Positions 51,074 to 64,000 of a stretch of 64,000 bases of DNA are shown here, in pieces. Every line of letters starts with the position of its first letter. Within the stretch, counting starts at the first letter, position 1. The stretch is from the NCBI RefSeq assembly GCF_024741135.1, contig NZ_JANSUY010000005.1:1-64000 (forward strand), read 5' to 3'. The DNA comes from Aquiflexum gelatinilyticum. GTDB taxonomy: Bacteria; Bacteroidota; Bacteroidia; Cytophagales; Cyclobacteriaceae. Position numbers and translations under genes: made by a program. Below the pieces are notes generated by a model. It was not told where the DNA came from and ran no database searches. It saw only the letters and a list, made by a program, of their open reading frames with translations.

Positions 51074-51317
51074 AGGAATACATCGAAATTTGCTCAGGTT
51101 TTTTGAATTTTTTTTCCATTTAACCATACTATTCTACCTCAGATCTATCAAATCATCTCAGAAATTCATGAGGCTATTGATTTTTTTAAAAAGCATATTT
51201 ATATTGAGTTATAAATTATTGACAGAATATTATTTCACCATTTAATATTCTGTAAATAAATCGTTGTTAGACTCACTATTTATCCGTTCCTTTAATTTAA
51301 TTATTTATTTACCTGAT

Positions 51318-51920
51318 ATGTATAAAGAAAAAGCATTTGATATTACTTCAGCAGTCTCTAGGCTCCGGGAAGGTGATGAAAAAGCTTTTTCAATATTGTA
51401 TGATTTTTTTAGGTCTAAGGTTTTTTTCACTTCAAAAAAAATGAATTTGTCCACTGAAGATGCCGAAGAAATCGTACAGGAAGTTTTTTTGATAATCTGG
51501 AAAAACAGACAAAACCTCAACTCGGAATTATCTTTCAACGCATACCTTCTTACCATCCTCAAATCCCTAATCATTAAGAAATCTAAGAAAGAAGCCAGAA
51601 GGATAGCCTATGAAGTCTACACCCTTTCGACTCAAGAAATTGAAAGCAACGAAACTGAAACACAGATTGAATATTCAGAATTTGAGAGGATTTCTATTTC
51701 AGAAATCGAAAAATTACCCAAAACACAAAAGGAGATTTTCAAAATGAAAAATTATGAAAACCTTCATTCAGGAGAAATCGCCGAAAAATTAGGGATTTCG
51801 AAAAGAACCGTAGAAAGCCATATTTACGTTGCAACCAAATCAATCAAAAACAAACTTCAAAAAAAATACTTAATTGCCATCAAATCTTTGGCAATAGGGA
51901 TGATATATTATTTTTTTTAA
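51318..51920 (+). CDS. ECF RNA polymerase sigma factor (Bacteroidota sigma-70 family)
   Basis: A 200-residue sigma factor. Region 2 is at about residues 12-75 (LYDFFRSKVFFTSKKMN, DAEEIVQEVFLIIWKNR) and region 4 at about 125-185 (LPKTQKEIFKMKNYENLHSGEIAEKLGISKRTVESHIY). The C-terminal hydrophobic tail (LIAIKSLAIGMIYYFF) is typical of Bacteroidota SusC-linked sigma factors. The start is the ATG at 51318; the TTG at 51264 upstream is unlikely. It is expected to activate the adjacent SusC-SusD operon when released by FecR, so the whole 51318-62857 stretch forms one signalling-controlled locus. Confidence 0.9.
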   Translation: MYKEKAFDITSAVSRLREGDEKAFSILYDFFRSKVFFTSKKMNLSTEDAEEIVQEVFLIIWKNRQNLNSELSFNAYLLTILKSLIIKKSKKEARRIAYEVYTLSTQEIESNETETQIEYSEFERISISEIEKLPKTQKEIFKMKNYENLHSGEIAEKLGISKRTVESHIYVATKSIKNKLQKKYLIAIKSLAIGMIYYFF

Positions 51921-52039
51921 CCATCCTTATTGGGATATCCCGCTTAATATTTCCTGATTTTGAAAATAATTGAAATATTTTCGATTATTGACTAAGTAAA
52001 TCCTTTCCGATATTGCTATATGTAGGAAAGAGATATTTA

Positions 52040-53074
52040 ATGAGTTACAGCAAAAGAGATATTGATAGATTTTTTGACGGAAAACTTTCAAAGAAAGAGG
52101 CCAAGGATTTTTTGAACTGGCTGGACTCTCCTGCCGGTGAATCTACATACAATGCCATTATTGAGGATGCGTGGTCAGATGAATTAAAAAACACCGATGA
52201 AGCTCCCGAGAAAGCTGACCCACACATTTTTGTTTTTTCAAAGAAAGAAAATCAGTCAAAAAACATTTCTTCTTCGCCCGTTAAAAACTCAAAATATAAA
52301 TCAAAGACAATTTGGACTTTGACAGGATTAGCTGCCACTTTGGTTCTTCTCTTGTCAGCCAGCTATATTTTTTATTTTGATTCCCCATCTCATAAAACTG
52401 AAGAGCGGACTGCCTTCTTGGAGGTCAAAACAATAGAAAGATTTACTCCAAAAGGAAATAAGAAAATAATCACCCTTCCTGACGGTTCTACCGTGGTCCT
52501 AAATGCAGACAGCAAATTGACCTACGCAAGTGATTTTATCCAAAATAGAACCATCACCTTAGAAGGTGAGGGATTTTTTGATGTCGTCAGAGATGAGGAA
52601 CATCCATTTAAAGTGATCACTGATAACATCGCTACGACAGCTTTGGGAACCAGTTTCAACATCAGGGCATATGAAGGCAATCCAAATATCCAAATAAGCC
52701 TGGCCTCCGGCAAGGTCAAGGTAGAAAATAACATTGACCAAAACCTTCTTGAAATCACCCCCGGAGAGGCTGTTTATTACTCAGAGGACAGCAATACTTT
52801 TGAAAAACAAAATGTAAACCTTTCCCACGTATTGAGCTGGAAGGAAGGTATTCTCCAATTTGAAAAAACCCCCTTCAACTTGATCATCGAAGATTTGGAA
52901 AGATGGTACGGTGTAGAAATAAAAGTCACGGGAGACAAAAAATTACCTGAATACAAATGTTCCGGTACATTCAAGCCACATGAATACTTATCCAATGTCT
53001 TGAAAGTACTTAGCTATTCAGTGGAATTTGAATATAAAATTAGTGGAAATGAAGTAACTCTTGAATTCAATTAA
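52040..53074 (+). CDS. FecR-family anti-sigma factor (DUF4974)
   Basis: A 344-residue inner-membrane protein. The cytosolic N-terminal anti-sigma part is at about residues 1-90 (DIDRFFDGKLSKKEAKDFLNWL), a transmembrane helix at about 96-116, the FecR periplasmic domain at about 130-240 (GNKKIITLPDGSTVVLNADSKLTY, FFDVVRDEEHPFKVITDNI, ALGTSFNIRAYEG), and a DUF4974 domain at the end (about 255-344, LSWKEGILQFEKTPFNLIIEDLERWYGVEI). It should hold the sigma factor at 51318 until the STN domain of the SusC signals ligand uptake. ATG at 52040 chosen; the upstream TTG at 52013 is not needed. Confidence 0.92.
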   Translation: MSYSKRDIDRFFDGKLSKKEAKDFLNWLDSPAGESTYNAIIEDAWSDELKNTDEAPEKADPHIFVFSKKENQSKNISSSPVKNSKYKSKTIWTLTGLAATLVLLLSASYIFYFDSPSHKTEERTAFLEVKTIERFTPKGNKKIITLPDGSTVVLNADSKLTYASDFIQNRTITLEGEGFFDVVRDEEHPFKVITDNIATTALGTSFNIRAYEGNPNIQISLASGKVKVENNIDQNLLEITPGEAVYYSEDSNTFEKQNVNLSHVLSWKEGILQFEKTPFNLIIEDLERWYGVEIKVTGDKKLPEYKCSGTFKPHEYLSNVLKVLSYSVEFEYKISGNEVTLEFN

Positions 53075-53190
53075 ACAAGCCTATGAAACAAAAAAACAGA
53101 GAACACCATACAATTTTCCTTTAAAAATAAAGGAGATTGCTTCCGATCCAATCTGAATTGGATTTTAGGATAAATCAGAATGATAATTCA

Positions 53191-56100
53191 ATGATTGACA
53201 CTAACACAACCCAAAATATGTCACAATCACTACAAAAAACAACGATTATGGTCTTCAAGCGTGCTATTCTGAGTACGTTTCTCATGACCATAGCACTTAA
53301 TGCCGTCTTTGCCAACAGCAAATTGGACCAGATTAAAAGTATTGATGAAGTTTACATCAAACTTGATATCAGGAAAGGAAGTTTGGAAAACATCCTTAAC
53401 GCAATCGAAAGCAAAACAGATTACAGCTTTTTTTACACTGAAAAGAATTTAAAAAACAACTCCAACATTGAGCTATCCACTTCAAATGGTACTGTGGCTG
53501 ATGTTCTTACAGAGATTGCAAATAAAAAGCAACTTCACTTTAAGCAAGTCAACAATGTCATCAGTGTGAAATCTCTTTCGCCTGATATTTCTTCAAAGAA
53601 AATTGTTATTGAAATTGAAGATCGAGATGTGGAAATTTCAGGAACCATTACAAGTGAATCAGGAGAGACACTTCCGGGTGTAGCCATTTCAATATCCGGC
53701 ACCACTTTGGGAACGGTGTCTGATATCGATGGAAAGTACAAAATCTCCGTGCCTGAGGGTTCTACCCTTGTGTTTTCTTATATTGGATTTGCTACCCAAA
53801 GAATCGAAATCGGAAACCAATCCGTCATCGACGTAGTCTTGGCTCAAGAGGCCAGAGCACTTGAAGAAGTGGTCATTGCAGCTTTGGGCATCCAAAAGAC
53901 TTCAAGAAGTATTGGATATGCAGCTACAAATGTTGGTTCAGATGAAGTAACCATCAACAGAACGCCTAATTTCATGAATGCCTTGCAGGGAAAAATTGCA
54001 GGTGTGGCTATCTCTCCAATGGGAACCGGTCCGGGCGGAACAACCAAAATCAGGATCAGGGGTCAATCTTCCATTTCCGGTCAAAACAACCCACTCATAG
54101 TTGTTAACGGTATCCCAATTGACAATACCAACTTTGGTACTAATCCAGGAAATAGCGGTGCTGACAACTCCATAGGAGTAAGAGGTGGTGGTGTGACATC
54201 AGATGGTGGTGATGGTCTCAGCAGTATCAACCCCGACGATATCGAAAGCATGACCGTCCTAAAAGGTGCTGCAGCATCTGCACTTTATGGATCAAGAGCC
54301 AAAGATGGAGTCATCATGATCAACACCAAATCAAGAGGTGAATCAAAAGGAATAGGCGTGACTTATAACCTGAATTACACCAACGAAGCACCATTAGATT
54401 TTACGGATTATCAGTATGAATACGGTCAGGGTGAACAAGGTGTGAGGCCTACAACTCCAAACCCAACTTCGGGACAGTGGTCATTTGGTGAAAAATTCGC
54501 ACCCGGTATGACCCAAGTCTTATTTAATGGCGTGACTGTACCCTACGTTCCGCAAAGAGGAATCATCAATGACTTCTTCAGGAATGGACAGAATGTGACC
54601 AATTCCATTATGGTTTCTACCTCAAGCGATAAAGGTGGATTGAGCTTTTCTTTCTCCGACCTTAATAGTAAGGGTATTGTTCCAAACAACTCTTTCAACA
54701 GAAAGACAATTTATTTAGGATTTGGCTACCAACTTAGTAAAAGATTAAACTTCAAAGGAAATATCAATTACTCTGTTGAAGACAACAAAAACCCACCAAA
54801 CGTTGCCAACCAAGACAACTCTATTCCAACAGCCCTTTATAATATGGCCAACTCCATGCCATTAAGTGTGCTTGATGAAAATAAATTTGATGCTAATGGC
54901 AACGAGGCTGTTTATTCAAGATTTAGAAACAGAACAAATCCATACTTTACGCTTTCTCAGCAGTTTCAAAATATCAAAAGAGACAGGATCTTTGGAAACG
55001 TAGCAGTAAAATATGATCTCACTCCTTGGTTGTATATCCAAGGACGTATAGGTCAGGATTATTGGTCAAGAGATCAAGATTACAACAACTTCCCTACAGG
55101 TCAGGCTTCATTAGCCGCTGCACCTGCAGGATTTGTAAACGGACTTTATACACAGGAATCAAGGAGATTTAGAGAAGTCAATGCTGATTTCATATTGTCT
55201 GCTACCAAAGAATTTGGTGATTATGGCATCAATGCAAATATAGGTGGAAACCATATGTACAGGACTTCTGATGTCAACAGTGTTCAAGCCAGGGATTTTG
55301 TAGTGAGAGATCTTTATACCGTCCAAAACGGAAGGGTTAAAGATCCGATTTTTGACAGGTATGAAAGAGCTGTGAATTCATTATTTGCATTTGCAGAGTT
55401 TTCTTATAAAAAGTTTCTGTTTATCAATGGTACCATCAGAAACGACTGGTTCTCGACCCTTTCTCCTGAAAACAGAAGTATTCTTTATCCTTCTATTTCT
55501 ACCAGTTGGATTTTTACAGAAAATACAGGTACATCTGATTGGTTTAATTTTGGAAAGTTAAGAGTAGCATATGCTGAAGTTGGTTCTGATTCAGATGTGG
55601 GACCATATTCCAACGTATTGTTCTATGGTGTCAATGCTAACTTGTTTAATAACCAACCTGTCGGTGGTCCTCTAGGCGGAACTCTTCCGAACCCAAATTT
55701 GAAGCCAATGCGTGTAGCAGAAACTGAAATTGGATTAGAAACGAAGATGTTCCAGGGAAGGGTTTCTTTAGATCTTGCTGCTTACAGCAAAATCACAAGT
55801 GATCAGATAGTAAGTGCCCAGATTTCTGATGCATCTGGTTTTGTAAACACCTCTATCAATAGTGGCCAAAGTTCAAATAAAGGTATTGAAATGCTCTTGA
55901 CTGTTGTCCCTGTAGAAAATGAAAACTTTACTTGGGAAGCTTCCTTCAACGGTGCCTACAACAAGACCAAAGTATTGAGCTTATTGACTGACACTCCTGG
56001 TGAAAGAATCACTGTAGGTACCCACGTTTTCAATGGTGAACTGAGACAGATCGTAGGAGAAGAAATGGGACAGATAGCAGGATTCGGCTACAGAAGGGAC

Positions 56101-56700
56101 GAACAGGGAAGACAGATTTTCGGGGGTAATGGTTTGCCATTGAGAACCCTTGATCTTGTAAATTTTGGCAGTGCCCTCCCAAAATGGATTGGAGGTATCA
56201 ACAACTCCTTTAATTATAAAGGAGTATCGCTTTCATTCCTCATAGACTTTAGATTGGGTGGAAAAATGCTTTCAGGGACCAACTTCAACGCTGTAAGACA
56301 CGGTTTGCACAAAATGACCCTAGAAGGTCGTGAAGGCGGAGTCGTAGGAGATGGTGTCAACCTTGCAGGTGAAACAAACACTGTCGCTGCGCCGGTTCAG
56401 TCTTATTGGGAAATTGTAAGGTCTCAGGCATTGGTTGAACCAGTTATCTACAATTCTGGATTCTGGAAACTGAGACAAATCACAATGGGTTACGATTTTA
56501 CCAAATTCATCCCTAAAAACTTCCCGGTTAGCGCTGTCAGACTTAATCTTGTAGCCAACAACGTTTTCATGATCAAAAAGTGGGTGGATAACATTGACCC
56601 AGAATCATTTGGGTATACCTCAGATAACCTTGTCGGAATGGAATCTACAGGACTTCCTACTACAAGAGGTCTCGGCTTCAATCTTAATGTTAAATTTTAA
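53191..56700 (+). CDS. SusC/RagA TonB-dependent outer membrane receptor with STN domain
   Basis: A 1169-residue protein. After the signal peptide (about 20-42; VFANSK) comes an STN signalling domain (about 50-120; VYIKLDIRKGSLENILNAIESKTDYSFFY), a carboxypeptidase-like regulatory beta domain (about 145-225, ISGTITSESGETLPGVAI, GKYKISVPEGSTLVFSYIGF), the TonB plug (about 232-380, with TRSIGYA-like SRSIGYAATNV and DIESMTVLKGAAASALYGSRAKDGVI) and the 22-strand barrel. The STN domain marks a transducer that signals to FecR. The TonB box is in LEEVVIAALGIQ. Two ATGs are possible (53191 and 53218); the in-frame TTG at 53137 follows an AGGAG too closely. Substrate unknown, probably sugar-acid-containing. 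Confidence 0.93.
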   Translation: MIDTNTTQNMSQSLQKTTIMVFKRAILSTFLMTIALNAVFANSKLDQIKSIDEVYIKLDIRKGSLENILNAIESKTDYSFFYTEKNLKNNSNIELSTSNGTVADVLTEIANKKQLHFKQVNNVISVKSLSPDISSKKIVIEIEDRDVEISGTITSESGETLPGVAISISGTTLGTVSDIDGKYKISVPEGSTLVFSYIGFATQRIEIGNQSVIDVVLAQEARALEEVVIAALGIQKTSRSIGYAATNVGSDEVTINRTPNFMNALQGKIAGVAISPMGTGPGGTTKIRIRGQSSISGQNNPLIVVNGIPIDNTNFGTNPGNSGADNSIGVRGGGVTSDGGDGLSSINPDDIESMTVLKGAAASALYGSRAKDGVIMINTKSRGESKGIGVTYNLNYTNEAPLDFTDYQYEYGQGEQGVRPTTPNPTSGQWSFGEKFAPGMTQVLFNGVTVPYVPQRGIINDFFRNGQNVTNSIMVSTSSDKGGLSFSFSDLNSKGIVPNNSFNRKTIYLGFGYQLSKRLNFKGNINYSVEDNKNPPNVANQDNSIPTALYNMANSMPLSVLDENKFDANGNEAVYSRFRNRTNPYFTLSQQFQNIKRDRIFGNVAVKYDLTPWLYIQGRIGQDYWSRDQDYNNFPTGQASLAAAPAGFVNGLYTQESRRFREVNADFILSATKEFGDYGINANIGGNHMYRTSDVNSVQARDFVVRDLYTVQNGRVKDPIFDRYERAVNSLFAFAEFSYKKFLFINGTIRNDWFSTLSPENRSILYPSISTSWIFTENTGTSDWFNFGKLRVAYAEVGSDSDVGPYSNVLFYGVNANLFNNQPVGGPLGGTLPNPNLKPMRVAETEIGLETKMFQGRVSLDLAAYSKITSDQIVSAQISDASGFVNTSINSGQSSNKGIEMLLTVVPVENENFTWEASFNGAYNKTKVLSLLTDTPGERITVGTHVFNGELRQIVGEEMGQIAGFGYRRDEQGRQIFGGNGLPLRTLDLVNFGSALPKWIGGINNSFNYKGVSLSFLIDFRLGGKMLSGTNFNAVRHGLHKMTLEGREGGVVGDGVNLAGETNTVAAPVQSYWEIVRSQALVEPVIYNSGFWKLRQITMGYDFTKFIPKNFPVSAVRLNLVANNVFMIKKWVDNIDPESFGYTSDNLVGMESTGLPTTRGLGFNLNVKF

Positions 56701-56711
56701 TCAGAGCTACC

Positions 56712-58232
56712 ATGAAAAAGATATATAATTTTATCCTCCTTGTGCTGATGCTAGGCTACAGCACATCATGTGATCAAAACTTTGATGAGCTTAATACCAA
56801 CAAAGTTGCCGCTACTTCAATTGATCCTGCTTTTCAATTAAACAATGCTACAGTAAATGCTTCGCCAAATTCATTTGGAATGTTGGTTTACGAAATGGGT
56901 ATTGTTCAGCAAATCATTTCTCCTAACTCGGGGGTTTTGACAGGTGCTAATTTTAATCAGGACAACAGGGCTTCTACACAAGACAACTGGCAGAAGTATT
57001 ACAGGAACGTAATCAAAAACACAAAAGATATCATCTCAAGAATTGAGGATGATCCAACCAGAAGTAATCTTCTGCAGATGACAAGGATTATCCAGGCTTA
57101 TGGTTTTATGATTCTGACTGATTCTTATGGTTCTATTCCTTACACAGAAGCAGGTGTGGGATATAGCAATCAAGTCTTCTATCCCAAATATGATACACAG
57201 GAGTCTATTTATGCAGATCTTATCAAAGAATTGGAAGAGGCCTCTGCAGCACTTAATGCAAGTGGAAGAGTGGAAACTGCTGATATCCTTTATGCAGGAA
57301 ATATTGCCAAGTGGAAAAAATTCGGTTATTCCCTACTTCTTAGGGCAGGCATGAGATTGAGTAATGCAAATCCAACACTTGCACAACAGACTGTAGCCAA
57401 GGCCTTTGCGGGAGGAGTTATCCTTACAAACAATGATAATGCTGTCATTGTTCACGATGCAAACTATGTCAATCCTGCCGGAAATACTTTAAATGCCACA
57501 GAAGCAGCCAACTTCTATATGACAGAGCCTTTTGTGAATTTCCTTAAAAACAGCAATGATCCAAGATTAAGCGCCATAGCTGTAAGATATGTAGGTGCTA
57601 AATCAGGGTCAGAACAGCAGCCTGCTCGTCAAACCTATGATCCTGCCCTTCAAATCGGAATGCCTATGGGTAATGATAATGCAGGTGCCGTTCAGATAGC
57701 TGCTGATCTGGGATTGGCAAGTTTTTATGACTTCAGTCAAGTCGACAGGAGGAGGGTTGCAAAAATTACAGCTCCGGGATTTATGGTTACTGCATCTCAA
57801 ACCAACCTTTTGCTAGCTGAAGCAAGACAAAGAGGATGGATAACTTCTGGAACTGCAGCTGAATATTTTGAAGCAGGTGTTAGAGCGCATATGATTCAAA
57901 TGGCACTTCATGATCAAGCATCCACAATTCCTGCAGCGGATATTGATGCATACATTGCGGCCAATCCATTGGTTGACGCCACAGCACTCCAGCAGATCAA
58001 TTCTCAATATTGGATTTCCTCTTTGATGAATGGACCTGAAGCTTTTGCCAACTTCCGAAGAAGTGGTTTCCCTGTACTTACAGCAAATCCATTCCCAGGC
58101 AGAGAGGTATTGTTTATTAACAGATTGACATATCCTAACTCAGAGATTTCTGTAAACTCTGAAAATGTAGGCGCTGCCATCACAGCCCAAGGTGCTGATG
58201 ACCTTGAGACTAAGGTTTGGTGGGACAAATAA
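56712..58232 (+). CDS. SusD/RagB-like lipoprotein
   Basis: A 506-residue lipoprotein that caps the SusC channel on the cell surface and binds the ligand. Lipobox STSC (Cys20) follows a short leader. The family is SusD-like type 2: FDELNTNKVAATSIDPAFQLNNA, NWQKYYRNVIKNTKDIISRI, MTRIIQAYGFMILTDSYGSIPYTEAG (TPR-like core), FGYSLLLRAGMRLS and ISSLMNGPEAFANFRRSGFP. It begins 11 bases after SusC. A stable hairpin follows its stop. Confidence 0.92.
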   Translation: MKKIYNFILLVLMLGYSTSCDQNFDELNTNKVAATSIDPAFQLNNATVNASPNSFGMLVYEMGIVQQIISPNSGVLTGANFNQDNRASTQDNWQKYYRNVIKNTKDIISRIEDDPTRSNLLQMTRIIQAYGFMILTDSYGSIPYTEAGVGYSNQVFYPKYDTQESIYADLIKELEEASAALNASGRVETADILYAGNIAKWKKFGYSLLLRAGMRLSNANPTLAQQTVAKAFAGGVILTNNDNAVIVHDANYVNPAGNTLNATEAANFYMTEPFVNFLKNSNDPRLSAIAVRYVGAKSGSEQQPARQTYDPALQIGMPMGNDNAGAVQIAADLGLASFYDFSQVDRRRVAKITAPGFMVTASQTNLLLAEARQRGWITSGTAAEYFEAGVRAHMIQMALHDQASTIPAADIDAYIAANPLVDATALQQINSQYWISSLMNGPEAFANFRRSGFPVLTANPFPGREVLFINRLTYPNSEISVNSENVGAAITAQGADDLETKVWWDK

Positions 58233-58240
58233 ATTAGAAA

Positions 58241-58277
58241 TGAAGGTCCGGCGAATTCCGGGCCTTCATCTTCTCTT
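58241..58277 (+). terminator. hairpin after susD (terminator or mRNA-stability element)
   Basis: TGAAGGTCCGG (58241-58251) pairs with CCGGGCCTTCA (58258-58268), one T-G wobble, loop CGAATT, followed by TCTTCTCTT rather than a clean T run. It lies 42 bases before the RraA-like gene. It could partly end transcription or protect the susCD part of a longer mRNA. Confidence 0.6.
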
Positions 58278-58309
58278 CAATCAACAATTTCACAAATTAT
58301 CCAATCAAA

Positions 58310-59245
58310 ATGACTAGGAAAATAATCCCTGTTATGCTTTGCTGTTTTCTAATAATTGGAAGTATCAAAGCACAGCAAATTTCAAAAGAGGAGCTGATCT
58401 ACCTCACCAGAGAATGGAAAGGAGAAAGATTTGAGGATGGACGTCCAAAAGTTTCAGATGATCTATTAAAGCGCATGCGGCTTGTCACACATGATGAGGC
58501 TTGGGCGGTGATGAGAAACGCAGGTTACAAATATCAATATGCTGACGGTTGGCAAATAATCAACCCAGATAGCATACTTATAGGTAGGGCAGTTACTGCT
58601 ACATTCCTTCCAGGCCGTCCAGACATCCATAATGCAATAGATGACAGAGGAAAAAAAGAGGGTAAGCGGGGACAAAATTCATGGCCTGTTGATTTATTAG
58701 TTAAAGGTGATGTGTATGTGGCTGACCAGTTTGGGCTACATGTAGATGGACCAACTATTGGTGACAATGTAGGAAATGCCATTTATGCAAAAACAGGAAA
58801 TGGTATCGTTTATGACGGTGCCATCAGAGATGTTACCGGATTGAAAGAAATCGGTGGTTTTACCTCCTATTATACAAGCTACCACCCCTCCCACCATAAC
58901 CAGCAAGGTAATCTAAATACCATGCTTACAGGAATAAACCAACCTACAAGAATCCGTCAAGTAACAGTGATGGCAGGAGATGTAGTGTTAGGTAGGGACG
59001 GTGGAGTTTCATTTATACCTGCACATTTGGTTGAACAGGTAGTTGTTACTTCTGAAGTCGTCCGGCTGAGAGACATGTTTGGCCATGAAAGATTAAGAGC
59101 CGGTGTATATACTGCAGGTCAAATTGACACCCGTTGGTCAGATGACATTGAAAGAGATTTTTCTAAATGGCTCAATGAACATATAGATGAACTTCCTATT
59201 CCAAGAGAGCAAATCCAGGAAATCCTGAAGAAAAGAACATGGTAG
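58310..59245 (+). CDS. exported RraA-family (HMG aldolase-like) protein 1
   Basis: A 311-residue protein with a Sec signal peptide (core about residues 6-20, cleavage after IKA-Q). The body matches the RraA/4-hydroxy-4-methyl-2-oxoglutarate aldolase family: SWPVDLLVKGDVYVAD, the metal loop-like GDNVGNAIYAK (Asp152 where others have Glu), and YDGAIRD with Arg173-Asp174, the pair that binds the substrate carboxylate. This part keeps the usual D-G before the aldolase R-D. Cytosolic RraA enzymes cleave 2-keto acids to pyruvate; the export signal is unusual and implies a periplasmic reaction. First enzyme of the locus, 24 bases ahead of the first dehydratase. Confidence 0.85.
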   Translation: MTRKIIPVMLCCFLIIGSIKAQQISKEELIYLTREWKGERFEDGRPKVSDDLLKRMRLVTHDEAWAVMRNAGYKYQYADGWQIINPDSILIGRAVTATFLPGRPDIHNAIDDRGKKEGKRGQNSWPVDLLVKGDVYVADQFGLHVDGPTIGDNVGNAIYAKTGNGIVYDGAIRDVTGLKEIGGFTSYYTSYHPSHHNQQGNLNTMLTGINQPTRIRQVTVMAGDVVLGRDGGVSFIPAHLVEQVVVTSEVVRLRDMFGHERLRAGVYTAGQIDTRWSDDIERDFSKWLNEHIDELPIPREQIQEILKKRTW

Positions 59246-59269
59246 TCACTTCCATAAAAATCCAAGCCC

Positions 59270-60556
59270 ATGAAGACAGACAACAATAGGCGTTCATTTA
59301 TCCAAAAAAGTTTAATGGCTGGATTGGCCACTTCAGCTTTGATTCCAAGTTTTGGTTCTGAATTGATAGCAGCGGTAGACCGAGGACCAAAATATTCTAA
59401 TCCCTCCGACCTAAAAATCACAGGTGTCAAAACAGCTTTTATGAAAGGCCATGGCACACATATGTTTGTCAAATTGACCACCAATCAGGGGATTACAGGC
59501 TATGGCGAGGCGATGGATGCTGTGAGGGGTACTTATGGTGTAGCGACCGGAACTGAAGGTTGGGACAATATGACCCAGTTTTTGATTGGGCAAAACCCTT
59601 TGGACATCAATAAAATTGTAGAACAGATTTTAAGGAGAGGCCACTTTAGCGGGGCACAGGGCGGCATGTATGTGGCTGTTCTTACTGGAATTGAAATCGC
59701 TCTTTGGGACTTGGCGGGAAAGGCAATGAACCAACCTGTCTATCGGTTGATGGGCGGTAAGTTCCGGGATAAAATCCGCCTGTATTGTGACAGTGCCAGC
59801 AGCTCCGAAAGCCCGGAAGACATGGCCGCAGGAGCTATTGAAGTGAAAAATGCAGGATTTTCTGCCATAAAATTTGACTTGGATTGGGCGGGTGATCCCT
59901 CTAAACAGGATGAGTTTAACCGGACAGCTTCTAACGGGGAAATTGACAGGATGGTAAAACAGATTACTGCGGTGCGAGAAGCTATCGGTATGAACATGGA
60001 CCTTTGTCTCGACGCACACGGCAGATATGATTTGCCTTCTGGAATCCAAATTGCCAAGGAAATGGAGCAATTCAAACTCATGTTTTTAGAAGAACCTATT
60101 CCAGCCGAAAACCTTGACAGCCTCAGGGAAATCACAAGTCAGACCACTACCCCAATCTGTACTGGAGAAAACCAATATCTGGCACATGATTTCCGAAAAA
60201 TCCTTGAGAAAAAAGCAGCGGATATCATCATGCCTGACCTCCATAAATGTGGCGGAATCGGAGAAGGACAGCGGATCGCCAACTTGGCAAATCTATATTA
60301 TGTTCCTGTTGCACCCCATATGGTTGCCTCACCTTTTGGTGCTATGGCCGCTTGTCATTGTTGTGCTTCCATTTCCAATTTTCTTTGTTTAGAATGGCAT
60401 TGGTTCTCCAAATGGAAACAGTGGGATGAACTCATCTTAGAAGCACCATTGATCAAAGAAGGTTATATCCATCTAACTGAAAGACCTGGTGTGGGAGTCA
60501 CACCAAATGAAGAAGCGATAAGAAAATATGCTGTAGCTGATGCCCCTTTCTTTTAG
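59270..60556 (+). CDS. Tat-exported mandelate racemase/galactonate dehydratase-like enzyme 1
   Basis: A 428-residue enolase-superfamily protein. It starts with a twin-arginine signal (NRRSFIQKSLMAGLAT). The capping domain spans about 45-160 (SDLKITGVKTAFMKG, YGEAMDAVRG) and the barrel about 165-400. Metal ligands are Asp248, Glu274 and Glu300, seen in LCLDAHGRYD, MFLEEPIP and CTGEN; His250 in the DAHGR motif and His350 in APHM are the acid/base residues used by galactonate dehydratase-type members. Dehydration of an acid sugar to a 2-keto-3-deoxy product is the likely reaction. Tat export suggests it folds with its metal in the cytosol and works in the periplasm. Confidence 0.88.
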   Translation: MKTDNNRRSFIQKSLMAGLATSALIPSFGSELIAAVDRGPKYSNPSDLKITGVKTAFMKGHGTHMFVKLTTNQGITGYGEAMDAVRGTYGVATGTEGWDNMTQFLIGQNPLDINKIVEQILRRGHFSGAQGGMYVAVLTGIEIALWDLAGKAMNQPVYRLMGGKFRDKIRLYCDSASSSESPEDMAAGAIEVKNAGFSAIKFDLDWAGDPSKQDEFNRTASNGEIDRMVKQITAVREAIGMNMDLCLDAHGRYDLPSGIQIAKEMEQFKLMFLEEPIPAENLDSLREITSQTTTPICTGENQYLAHDFRKILEKKAADIIMPDLHKCGGIGEGQRIANLANLYYVPVAPHMVASPFGAMAACHCCASISNFLCLEWHWFSKWKQWDELILEAPLIKEGYIHLTERPGVGVTPNEEAIRKYAVADAPFF

Positions 60557-60604
60557 GAAAAAAGAAAACTAAAATGATTTCAAAATAAGAATTAAAGTAA
60601 CGAT

Positions 60605-61885
60605 ATGAAAAACAGTAAAGACAGTAGAAGATCATTTATCCAAAAAGGATTGGTGGCAGGTCTGACAGGTGGAGCACTATTATCAACATTTGGACAGGGA
60701 TTAAATGCCGCTGTGGATAGACAATCTCCCTTTTCCAACCCATCAGATCTGAAAATCACAGATGTAAAATGCGGCTATGTACGTGGGGCACTTTACGTTA
60801 AAATATATACCAACCAAGATGTATGGGGCTGCGGAGAAGCAGTGGATGCGATACATGGCACTTACCATTTGGTAAAAAGAATGGGCAACATGATAAAAGG
60901 CCAAAGCCCGCTCAATCCTAACCGGATTGCAGAGCAGTTGAGAAAGGGAGCATTTTTTGGGGGTGCCCAGTCGGGAGTTTTTGTGGCTGTTATGACAGCT
61001 ATAGAAACCGCACTTTGGGATTTGACAGGCAAAGTATTTGGCGTTCCGGTCTATCAGTTGTTGGGCGGTAAATTCAGAGATAAAATCAGAGTTTATTGTG
61101 ATACGGCGTTATATACTTCTACCAACCCTACCCCACAAGATTATGCCAAAGCGGCAAGAGGCGCTGTAGACAAGGGCTATAATGCAGTGAAGTTTGATGT
61201 CGATGATGCAAGAGATCCGAATAAATATGATCGGTTCAACTGGACCGCCAATCCTATGGAAATCGAAAGAATGTATAATGCAATCGCCGCAGTTCGTCAA
61301 GAAGTAGGTCCAAACATAGACATCTGTGTGGACATGCATGGAAGGTATGATGCAGTGACAGGATTGAAAATGGCCAAAATGTATGAAGATTTGAATCTTA
61401 TGTTTTTGGAAGAACCGATACCAGCTGATAATCCGGAAGTTTACAAATCGATTACCACTCAAACTTCAACTCCTATCTGTACAGGTGAAAACATCTATCT
61501 GGCATATGGATTTACAAGATTGCTCTCAGAATCAGCCATAGACATTATCATGCCGGATATTCAAAAAGCCGGTGGATTAGGTGAGGCCCAGAGGATCGCA
61601 AACCTTGCAAATCTATACTATGTGCCTTTTGCACCCCACATGGTGGCTTCTTTCCTTGGAGCAATGGCCAGCTGTCATGTCTGCGCCTCGGTGCCCAATT
61701 TCATGATCATGGAATGGCAAATCTACATGGATACCGATCAGCTTTGGAAAGATATTGTTACTTACGATGGTCCAAGAACAGAGAATGGTTTCATTACACT
61801 TTCTGAAAAACCTGGAATCGGTGTTGAAATCAACGAAGAAGGAATGAAAAAATATGCGGTAAAAGACATTCCGTTTTTTGAATAA
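60605..61885 (+). CDS. Tat-exported mandelate racemase/galactonate dehydratase-like enzyme 2
   Basis: A 426-residue paralogue of the preceding gene, 48 bases downstream, alignable along the whole length. It has a Tat signal (SRRSFIQKGLVAGLTGG), the capping domain with CGEAVDAIHGTYH, metal ligands Asp243, Glu269 and Glu295, and acid/base His245 (DMHGRYD) and His345 (APHM). The catalytic set matches enzyme 1, so both should be active; divergence is mostly in the capping domain (WGCGEAVD, ATTGTEGWDN-like segment missing), which sets substrate choice. A tandem duplication followed by specialisation is the simplest history. Confidence 0.88.
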   Translation: MKNSKDSRRSFIQKGLVAGLTGGALLSTFGQGLNAAVDRQSPFSNPSDLKITDVKCGYVRGALYVKIYTNQDVWGCGEAVDAIHGTYHLVKRMGNMIKGQSPLNPNRIAEQLRKGAFFGGAQSGVFVAVMTAIETALWDLTGKVFGVPVYQLLGGKFRDKIRVYCDTALYTSTNPTPQDYAKAARGAVDKGYNAVKFDVDDARDPNKYDRFNWTANPMEIERMYNAIAAVRQEVGPNIDICVDMHGRYDAVTGLKMAKMYEDLNLMFLEEPIPADNPEVYKSITTQTSTPICTGENIYLAYGFTRLLSESAIDIIMPDIQKAGGLGEAQRIANLANLYYVPFAPHMVASFLGAMASCHVCASVPNFMIMEWQIYMDTDQLWKDIVTYDGPRTENGFITLSEKPGIGVEINEEGMKKYAVKDIPFFE

Positions 61886-61906
61886 TAACCCATTAACCAA
61901 GTAACC

Positions 61907-62857
61907 ATGAAAAAAAATATCAAATTAACCCAATTGATCCTAGGAGCTTTCCTTATCCTCGCTACAGGAATAGTAGAAGGCCAAAATGTGGGCTCCTCTC
62001 CTGAATATATCAAAGCACTAACTTCAGAATGGAAGGGTGAAAGGTTTTCAGACGGTAGGCCTAAAGTCTCTGACCAAATTCTGGAAAGGTTGAAAAACAT
62101 CTCCATCGAAGAAGCTTGGGGAGTACTCAGAAACAAAGGATACCAAAATCAATATGAAGGGAATTGGCAGATAATGCTTGAAGATGAGGCCATGACAGGA
62201 CGGGTTGTTACTGCCCAATACATGCCTTTGAGACCTGACTTGCAAAATCAGATAAAAGATCAGGGAGTCAACAAAGAAGGAAGATCACCTAAGGGAGGCA
62301 CCAATTCTTGGCCTATTGATATCCTGACCAACGGTGATGTTTATGTCGCTGATGGTTATGGCAAAATTGCTGATGGCACATTGATCGGTGATAATCTTGG
62401 TAATTCCATTTATGCAAAATCAAAACGTGGGGTGATTTTTTATGGTTCGGTAAGAGACCAAGAAGGCCTTTCCGAAATCAAAGGATTCAATGCCTGGCAT
62501 AAAGGCCAAGACCCTTCATTTATCAATCAAATGATGCTGACATCCATCAATGCTCCCATCAGGGTTGGAAGAGCAACTGTGCTTCCCGGAGATGTCGTTT
62601 TAGCTAAAAAATACGGAGTAATCTTCATTCCGGCGCATTTGGTGGAAGATCTGGTGATCACCTCAGAGGTGACAGGCTTAAGGGATGAATTCGGTCACCA
62701 AAGACTAAGAGAAGGAAAATATCTTGCCGGAGAGATAGACAGTGAATGGACTGAAGCTATCAAAAAAGATTTCTTGGACTGGTTGAACAAATATCCGGGA
62801 AAGCTGCCGATGACAAAACAAGAATTGGATAATTACCTCAAGGAACGAAATTATTGA
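61907..62857 (+). CDS. exported RraA-family protein 2
   Basis: A 316-residue paralogue of the RraA-like protein at 58310. It has a Sec signal peptide (core about residues 8-24, cleavage near VEGQ) and keeps SWPIDILTNGDVYVAD, GDNLGNSIYAK and the substrate-binding Arg183-Asp184 in GSVRD. The residue pair before it is Y-G rather than D-G, unlike copy 1, so activity or specificity may differ. It lies 21 bases after dehydratase 2 and 57 bases before dehydratase 3. Possibly an aldolase for a second 2-keto-3-deoxy acid. Confidence 0.85.
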   Translation: MKKNIKLTQLILGAFLILATGIVEGQNVGSSPEYIKALTSEWKGERFSDGRPKVSDQILERLKNISIEEAWGVLRNKGYQNQYEGNWQIMLEDEAMTGRVVTAQYMPLRPDLQNQIKDQGVNKEGRSPKGGTNSWPIDILTNGDVYVADGYGKIADGTLIGDNLGNSIYAKSKRGVIFYGSVRDQEGLSEIKGFNAWHKGQDPSFINQMMLTSINAPIRVGRATVLPGDVVLAKKYGVIFIPAHLVEDLVITSEVTGLRDEFGHQRLREGKYLAGEIDSEWTEAIKKDFLDWLNKYPGKLPMTKQELDNYLKERNY

Positions 62858-62914
62858 TTGTCTTAATCACTGGAACACTTTGAATAAAAATTTCAACAAT
62901 AACCCATAGACAAA

Positions 62915-64000
62915 ATGAAAAACACTTTAAAAAGCATTATTTCGGATCAAAAAGAGAAGGAGCGGCAGTATGCAATTCAAAGACAAGCTGAAATCGACCA
63001 CATTGACACCAAAGCCAATAGAAGGGATTTCTTGAAAAAAACCGCATTGGGTGGTATGTCCCTGACGGCTCTGATGGGATTGAGTTTTGAAGACTCAATG
63101 GCCCAGACAACATCCAAAGTTCAAAAGGCTTCAGCTCCTTCTGATCTCAAAATCACTGACCTGAGATATTGTGTTACCACAGTATTGGGACGGACAGCCA
63201 TCATCAGGATTGATACCAACCAGGGAATTTATGGACTTGGCGAAGTAAGAGATGGCGCAGATCCGCGCTATGCCTTGATGCTTAAAAGCAGGATTTTGGG
63301 AGAGAATCCATGTAATGTAGAGAAGATTTTTAAAATTATTAAGCAGTTTGGGGGCCAAGCCCGTCAGGCAGGCGGTGTATGCGCAGTAGAAATGGCATTA
63401 TGGGACCTTTGTGGCAAAGCTTATAATGTCCCTGCATGGCAATTGCTCGGAGGCCGATACAGAGATTCTGTCAGACTTTATGCAGATACACCTACCGGTG
63501 AAAATCCTGAAGATCAAAAGGAAAAAATCAAGTACAGAACAGAAGTGCAAGGATATTCTTGGCTCAAAATGGATGTATCCATCAATCAGGTAAAAAACAT
63601 TCCCGGCACGCTGAACAACACTTCGATAATGAATCAAAATTCAAGTCAGTGGCAAGGAGGATACATGTCGTATGCGAATACCAAACATGCATTTACCGGA
63701 GTTCAGATCACTGAAAAAGGTTTGGATGAACTAGCCAAAATTGTCCATAATGTCAGAGAAATGGTTGGTTACGAAATTCCGATTTCAACTGATCACTATG
63801 GGCATATAGATGTCAACAATTGTATCAAATTGGGTAAAGCACTCGAAAAATACAACTTGGCTTGGTTGGAAGATATGGTGCCTTGGCAATGGACCGAACA
63901 GCACAAAACAATTACAGATGCTCTTGAAACCCCAACAACAACCGGTGAGGACATCTACTTACTCGAAAACTTCAAAGACCTGATCCATAACCATGCAGTG
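62915..64000 (+). CDS. Tat-exported mandelate racemase-like enzyme 3 (cut by window end)
   Basis: The frame is open from the ATG at 62915 to the last base (362 codons, no stop), so the C-terminus is missing. It has an unusually long N-terminal extension (about 35 residues, rich in charged residues) before a twin-arginine motif NRRDFLKKTALGGMSL. The enolase-superfamily body follows: SDLKITDLRYCVTTV, YGLGEVRDGAD, WQLLGGRYRDSV, then metal ligands Asp293 (STDHYGHID, with His294/His296), Glu319 (WLEDMVP) and Glu345 (TGEDIY). It differs clearly from enzymes 1 and 2 in motif spelling and spacing. Probably a dehydratase or racemase for a related sugar acid. Confidence 0.85.
   Translation, partial: MKNTLKSIISDQKEKERQYAIQRQAEIDHIDTKANRRDFLKKTALGGMSLTALMGLSFEDSMAQTTSKVQKASAPSDLKITDLRYCVTTVLGRTAIIRIDTNQGIYGLGEVRDGADPRYALMLKSRILGENPCNVEKIFKIIKQFGGQARQAGGVCAVEMALWDLCGKAYNVPAWQLLGGRYRDSVRLYADTPTGENPEDQKEKIKYRTEVQGYSWLKMDVSINQVKNIPGTLNNTSIMNQNSSQWQGGYMSYANTKHAFTGVQITEKGLDELAKIVHNVREMVGYEIPISTDHYGHIDVNNCIKLGKALEKYNLAWLEDMVPWQWTEQHKTITDALETPTTTGEDIYLLENFKDLIHNHAV

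Follow-up and report, generated by a model that had tools for sequence, protein, structure and literature searches.

Why should a locus for nutrient uptake across the outer membrane encode homologues of sugar-acid catabolic enzymes that themselves appear to be exported? This question is raised by a window of DNA from Aquiflexum gelatinilyticum, comprising positions 1 to 64,000 of a contig (NZ_JANSUY010000005.1) of 249,565 bases in a genome of 5.0 Mb, in which nine same-strand genes starting at position 51318 encode an extracytoplasmic function (ECF) sigma factor, FecR, SusC, SusD, RraA1, DehA, DehB, RraA2 and DehC. This gene set (nine genes on one strand, 51318–64000), with two RraA-like proteins and three enolase-superfamily dehydratase homologues, had been described in an initial annotation and was borne out by Pfam and NCBIfam matches, the domains of all five enzyme homologues lying above Pfam cut-offs. 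The reading that we favor, with a probability of roughly one half, is that of a SusCD uptake locus for a sugar acid (an aldonate, an aldarate or a lactone) whose catabolic enzymes would work in the periplasm. SusCD would, judging by its family, carry the substrate over the outer membrane; DehA/DehB and DehC, exported in folded form by the twin-arginine translocation (Tat) system, would abstract the proton beside the carboxylate and eliminate water, yielding a 2-keto-3-deoxy acid; Sec-exported RraA1 would take over the dehydratase product, its most likely role being that of a class II pyruvate aldolase that releases pyruvate and an aldehyde; and a BASS-family symporter encoded just beyond the window would move an acid product over the inner membrane.

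The case for export begins with the dehydratase homologues, all on the plus strand: DehA (59270..60556), its tandem paralogue DehB (60605..61885; 55% identity) and DehC (62915..64000, on to contig position 64399), which runs beyond the window and in full (G000:C43:62915-64399) has 494 residues. By a home-made rule that looks for a twin-arginine motif together with a mildly hydrophobic stretch, such motifs were found in all three (NRRSFI, SRRSFI and NRRDFL), that of DehC sitting at residue 35 after a long n-region, and one TatC was found in the genome. Matches to PF13378 numbered seven in this genome, namely four dehydratase-type proteins with a Tat motif and three other proteins without one. 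Relatives were fetched from named genomes with RraA1 as bait, and the best 80 loci of 106 relatives were kept; the closest RraA1 relatives came from Cognataquiflexum and Aquiflexum, with 94–96% identity for the best ones. Adding the own locus gave 81 loci, 80 of which were labelled. Signals and motifs were counted in the open reading frames (ORFs) of 93 loci by home-made rules with internal controls, after removal of plus-strand ORFs whose start fell in bases 1 to 3 of a locus; the score thresholds for calling homologues were chosen by us.

A Tat-like N-terminus was present in 94/94 DehA/B and 69/73 DehC homologues, as well as in 8/8 UxuA-like neighbors, and in none of the controls from the same neighborhoods (0/10 glucarate-dehydratase, 0/8 HpcH/HpaI and 0/9 GarR homologues). 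The rule was passed by 21/633 other ORFs, and by shuffled N-termini in 1/94 (DehA/B) and 0/73 (DehC) cases. The median number of residues ahead of the first position aligning to the solved homologue 2qq6 was 48 in DehA/B and 78 in DehC, compared with 28 in the glucarate-type control. Chance and misread start codons were considered as sources of the dehydratase Tat motifs and rejected, as the export-signal controls spoke against them. Hence, the Tat signals attributed earlier to all three dehydratases are present here and kept across genera, with clean controls, and export of these proteins is strongly indicated.

With regard to catalysis, MR_MLE_N and MR_MLE_C were above cut-off in DehA, DehB and DehC, and the columns of DehA residues D248, E274, E300 and H350 were invariant in 94/94 DehA/B and 73/73 DehC homologues. 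From what is known of the superfamily, D248, E274 and E300 would be metal ligands and H350 the catalytic histidine; family membership and these conserved residues together suggest dehydration chemistry. The histidine of the DxH motif was present in 94/94 DehA/B and 0/73 DehC homologues, the latter having Tyr, Phe or Trp in its place, and because it is missing, DehC represents a different subtype. Elsewhere in the genome lies a Tat-type homologue of the D-mannonate dehydratase ManD (L010:964-2307; 388 bits, cut-off 550).

The two RraA-like proteins, RraA1 (58310..59245) and RraA2 (61907..62857), both on the plus strand, matched PF03737 with 52.9 and 61.9 bits (cut-off 24.5). D-X20-R-D, which we take to be the formula of the RraA/HMG-CHA aldolase motif, is intact in both and was present in 83/83 RraA1 homologues. 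An AlphaFold2 model of RraA1 had a mean predicted local distance difference test (pLDDT) score of 85.1, and its structural matches were RraA folds, HMG/CHA aldolase 3noj being found at rank 7. The top match, PDB 5ir2, bears the deposited name 'novel cellulase', a label that looks doubtful given its match to the RraA fold. According to the available part of PMC5065237, Arg-123 of the Pseudomonas putida aldolase is essential, Asp-124 binds the metal, and most homologues carry one of two motifs. The window proteins share the fold, the Arg-Asp pair and D-X20-R-D with this family as far as it is described there, and differ from it in having an export signal, a length of about 310 residues and 19% identity to 3noj in the structural match. 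The intact motif suggests that RraA1 may catalyze aldol cleavage.

Both enzyme types are brought together by gene linkage. DehA/B immediately adjoins RraA1 in 79 of the 80 labelled loci, the exception (L059) stopping at a contig end; L089, where a longer overlapping ORF masked RraA1, was excluded from this count. RraA2 and DehC were both present in 62/80 loci. The genes came in six or more different arrangements, in some of which the strand changed. Many Cyclobacteriaceae have SusCD-RraA1-DehB-RraA2-DehC-BASS, whereas Allomuricauda and a single Maribacter have SusCD-DehC-RraA2-DUF4440-BASS-DehB-RraA1-PQQ-cupin (PQQ denoting a pyrroloquinoline quinone dehydrogenase); a metagenome-assembled genome of Chitinophagaceae has RraA2-DehC-BASS-RraA1-DehB, and in Pelagihabitans RraA1 lies on the strand opposite to the remaining genes. 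Going by record names, the unit of an exported-type dehydratase and RraA occurs in Cyclobacteriaceae, Flavobacteriaceae, Chitinophagaceae and others. Of 295 genomes sampled from the class, seven had RraA1-like matches (E ≤ 1e-10) and six had DehB (E ≤ 1e-60), and all six DehB genomes had an adjacent RraA1, which in one of them (G014, L038) was in two pieces; the seventh RraA1-like genome held only a 51% relative. In G267 (L033/L112), RraA2 and DehC were mere fragments, with RraA1, DehB and BASS intact. SusC and SusD both lay within six genes in 37/80 loci and somewhere in the fetched stretch in 56/81. On this gene order, the dehydratase and RraA1 are a linked unit, usually accompanied by SusCD where enough sequence had been fetched, and functional coupling of RraA1 to the dehydratase is strongly indicated. 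A small DUF4440 (SnoaL-like) protein also recurred within or close to the block, at L046:16224-16694 and in 34 more of the 93 loci; of 33 examined, 30 had a Sec-like start.

A number of findings weigh against the periplasmic route, and they begin with the signals of the RraA proteins. Sec signals had been assigned to both in the initial annotation; RraA2 passes our strict Sec rule, and RraA1 of this genome fails it, passing only a relaxed rule that was devised after the strict one had missed it. The relatives were mostly Sec-like, with 66/83 RraA1 and 67/74 RraA2/3/4 under the strict rule (shuffled, 4/83 and 5/74; other ORFs, which include many genuinely exported proteins, 210/633; three cytosolic controls together, 0/27) and 74/83 and 74/74 under the relaxed one (shuffled, 8/83 and 12/74; other ORFs, 330/633; controls, 1/27). 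We therefore regard the Sec assignment as probably correct. The failure of RraA1 under the strict rule, the crudeness of the signal rules and the share of Sec-like starts among the other ORFs would fit false signals and an ordinary cytosolic pathway, an explanation that we find scarcely credible given the Tat-like N-termini of the dehydratases, with their clean controls, and the median of 48 residues that precede the 2qq6-aligned part.

Other findings bear on the steps after dehydration. The D-X20-R-D motif was present in 56/74 RraA2/3/4 proteins and missing in 18/74, contrary to a simple two-aldolase reading; among those without it are Flavobacteriaceae RraA2, with Ser in place of Asp, and two more RraA proteins of exported type in this genome. 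Moreover, in L101 (13491-15220) a PfkB-family gene resembling 2-keto-3-deoxygluconate (KDG) kinase and an Eda gene directly follow BASS; Eda, the 2-keto-3-deoxy-6-phosphogluconate (KDPG) aldolase, scored 374.6 bits (cut-off 275), and the kinase-like protein was under the NCBIfam cut-offs. From this gene order, a keto-deoxy acid would seem to be imported in that species. These results, together with KdgK and Eda homologues elsewhere in the A. gelatinilyticum genome, favor an alternative in which dehydration alone would be periplasmic, BASS would import the 2-keto-3-deoxy acid, and KDG kinase and KDPG aldolase would finish the pathway in the cytosol, leaving RraA a role other than aldol cleavage, such as tautomerisation, decarboxylation or lactone handling. 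We consider this scheme unlikely, as KdgK-like and Eda genes were linked in just 1/93 loci, the motif was kept in all RraA1 homologues, and the symporter, by analogy, argues against a keto-acid cargo.

Apart from these considerations, the KdgK and Eda homologues of this genome lie in L125 (G000:C55:197000-216000), which looks like a cytosolic hexuronate pathway, where genes of UxaB-like, UxaA-like and TRAP-transporter type were assigned by eye. RraA3, the fourth exported-type RraA in the genome (L006:8889-9863, minus strand), has R-N instead of R-D, and no dehydratase gene was found near it in the stretch read. In the exported-type RraA4, located on C1, Ala replaces the first Asp of the motif.

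The symporter itself (BASS/SBF family, 359 residues, contig positions 64499-65578, after DehC and followed by an opposite-strand gene) matched PF01758 with 137.1 bits (cut-off 24.3) and lay within six genes in 55/80 loci. It is closest to PanS and ASBT-NM, its best solved match being 3zuy, and scored 243.5 with the PanS model NF047939, below the cut-off of 400. As reported in the available part of PMC10645422, mutation of Asn 265 abolishes pantoate binding by ASBT-NM, ketopantoate apparently does not bind, and Ser occupies this place in the plant BASS proteins that transport pyruvate, glycolate and chain-elongated keto acids. Our symporter shares PF01758 and the Asn 265 equivalent with ASBT-NM, PanS and the plant BASS1/2 proteins as presented there, and differs in being linked to sugar-acid enzyme homologues. 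Among 58 BASS homologues, the Asn 265 equivalent was kept in all 57 with the motif, one protein having no pattern match, and the place of Thr 112 was occupied by Met, Val or Leu in 47 and by Thr in 10. By analogy, the kept Asn argues against pyruvate or any other keto acid as cargo; pyruvate, which we had expected at first, was set aside for this reason, and a hydroxy acid is therefore at least as likely a cargo. Between DehC and BASS there is a terminator-like hairpin with 15 pairs, and another of 14 pairs follows BASS (five such sites, compared with 2.4 expected), so that BASS may have a separate transcript here.

The remaining points on this side concern substrate and sampling. None of the three dehydratases reached an isofunctional NCBIfam cut-off, the closest model being that of galactonate dehydratase, NF010624 (DehA 261.2, DehB 249, full DehC 179.8; cut-off 311), and scores with the other dehydratase models were also under their cut-offs; because of this, taking a substrate from NCBIfam was rejected and none was assigned. 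Given the absent DxH histidine, the chemistry of DehC may differ from that of DehA/B. The relatives, having been fetched through RraA1, are not independent of one another, and one duplicate pair or more is among them (L033 and L112, on equally long contigs and with the same gene scores); distinct sequences amounted to 82/83 RraA1, 93/94 DehA/B, 73/73 DehC, 74/74 RraA2/3/4 and 57/58 BASS. The distance correlation between RraA1 and DehB was the highest of 15 protein pairs (0.747; lowest, 0.329), and positive values of this kind arise from shared ancestry alone. Taken together, conserved Tat signals, common Sec-like starts, the presence of TatC, intact catalytic residues and linkage speak for the periplasmic pathway proposed in the initial annotation, and the RraA2-type motif losses and the KdgK/Eda genes of L101 against it, which leaves that functional reading plausible.

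At the uptake end, the locus has the SusC and SusD pair of a canonical polysaccharide utilisation locus: a SusC/RagA TonB-dependent transporter (53137..56700, plus strand; TIGR04056 623.4 bits, cut-off 368.25; Plug and CarbopepD_reg_2 above cut-off) and a SusD-like lipoprotein (SusD-like_2; 56712..58232, plus strand; PF12771 267.9 bits). SusCD systems usually import oligomers, and a chondroitinase-B-like polysaccharide lyase is encoded near the Allomuricauda locus L086 (L086:18971-20932). Both facts would suit acid sugars bound in an oligosaccharide or conjugate and processed before inner-membrane transport, with the dehydratase homologues acting as lyase-like eliminases. This appears quite improbable to us: in a Pfam scan, neither the nine window proteins nor BASS showed a domain of a glycoside hydrolase or polysaccharide lyase, the chondroitinase-B-like homologue occurred in 1/93 loci, and the residues of the dehydratase homologues fit the acid-dehydratase superfamily.

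Upstream of susC lie the genes for the ECF sigma factor (51318..51920, plus strand; alternative start TTG at 51264) and the FecR-type anti-sigma factor (52013..53074, plus strand; FecR 54.1 bits, FecR_C 71.9 bits). Sigma70_r2 and r4_2 were above cut-off in the former, which scored slightly below the TIGR02985 cut-off (123.6 bits; 126.4). Of the ECF sigma/FecR/STN-SusC switch described earlier, the sigma, FecR and SusC genes were recovered; the STN domain of SusC was a weak match, at 24.2 bits under a cut-off of 28.4. Gene order suggests regulation by sigma factor, FecR and SusC. Between susD and rraA1, a terminator-like hairpin of 12 pairs with a weak T tail (58240..58269, plus strand) is a mere consensus match, since 12 hairpins of this kind were found in the region and 11.8 were expected. 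A sigma-70 promoter scan of the region gave no excess over shuffled sequence.

Neighboring genes in the relatives were inspected for the nature of the substrate. In L073, from Cyclobacterium, an HpaI-type aldolase, a GntP permease, a Tat-type UxuA-like protein, a tartronate-semialdehyde reductase and a glucarate-dehydratase homologue are encoded beside the exported-type enzymes (L073:4203-9870). The reductase was above cut-off (348 bits; 340.75), the glucarate dehydratase homologue (324.7 bits; 828.7) and the GarL/HpaI aldolase homologues (217–218 bits) were under theirs, and GntP missed the NCBIfam-type cut-off (238.5 bits; 292.75) and passed that of Pfam. Stretches of this kind lie in other Cyclobacterium loci as well; similar neighbor sets occurred in 8 to 10 of the 93 loci, and L-arabinose isomerase genes near three (L091 and L095, family-tested; L038, by similarity). 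A PQQ dehydrogenase gene was present in 9/80 loci, one of them cut by a contig end; eight of the nine had a cupin protein and seven an SMP-30/gluconolactonase-domain protein, the family tests for these three having been made on L086. Sec-like N-termini were found in 9/10 PQQ dehydrogenases, 10/10 cupins and 8/9 SMP-30-domain proteins. In some Flavobacteriaceae, the PQQ dehydrogenase and SMP-30/gluconolactonase-domain protein, with their Sec-like starts, could make the acid from free sugar in the same compartment. These context genes point to sugar acids, and to no single one. A second cluster in the A. gelatinilyticum genome (L007:7897-16819; G000:C1, about 900,900-909,800) encodes RraA4 and an MlrC-like protein together with homologues of the three genes just described, near 903,000: a cupin, an SMP-30-domain protein and a PQQ dehydrogenase that also has a cytochrome c domain.

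Dahms-type and glucarate/galactarate non-phosphorylative pathways likewise pair a dehydratase, which in several of them is an enolase-superfamily member, with a subsequent pyruvate aldolase; these known pathways are cytosolic, and their aldolases belong to other families. The plan is alike, whereas the locus described here has export signals and an RraA-like aldolase candidate. In the quinate route of acetic acid bacteria the dehydratase is presumably periplasmic, and neither SusCD nor an aldolase is known to be part of that route. It leads from quinate to 3-dehydroshikimate through membrane-bound oxidation followed by a dehydratase, with enzyme families that differ from ours, as far as the available part of PMC9171043 describes it. 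The LacABC/DUF1080 3-keto-glycoside route, proposed in Bacteroidota (Pedobacter, Indibacter), is also periplasmic sugar chemistry; in the portion of PMC9007349 at hand it consists of glycoside oxidation and hydrolysis, in contrast to the acid dehydration and cleavage proposed here. Among the open-licence literature matches listed, judged by titles and the starts of abstracts, none described an exported RraA/dehydratase locus. A proteomics paper on arabinogalactan use by Maribacter (PMC11036162) was considered as a prior description and discarded, its main text, in the part available, making no mention of PQQ, RraA or gluconolactonase.

Acid-sugar dehydration and aldol cleavage are cytosolic chemistry as known, and what the locus appears to offer is a known kind of pathway, made of known enzyme families, in an unexpected compartment. 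A wider proposal, which we advance only tentatively and with less confidence than the periplasmic reading of this locus, is that many Bacteroidota may take sugar to pyruvate outside the cytosol, by PQQ-dependent oxidation, lactone opening by SMP-30 proteins, dehydration by Tat-exported dehydratases and cleavage by RraA, with BASS importing only small acids. If the periplasmic reading is true, the annotation of SusCD loci without glycoside hydrolases would change, and exported proteins now named merely RraA family or mandelate racemase would gain functions. As a matter of speculation, an extracytosolic route may benefit the cell by dispensing with sugar-acid uptake across the inner membrane, by delivering electrons via PQQ and by keeping reactive aldehydes outside.

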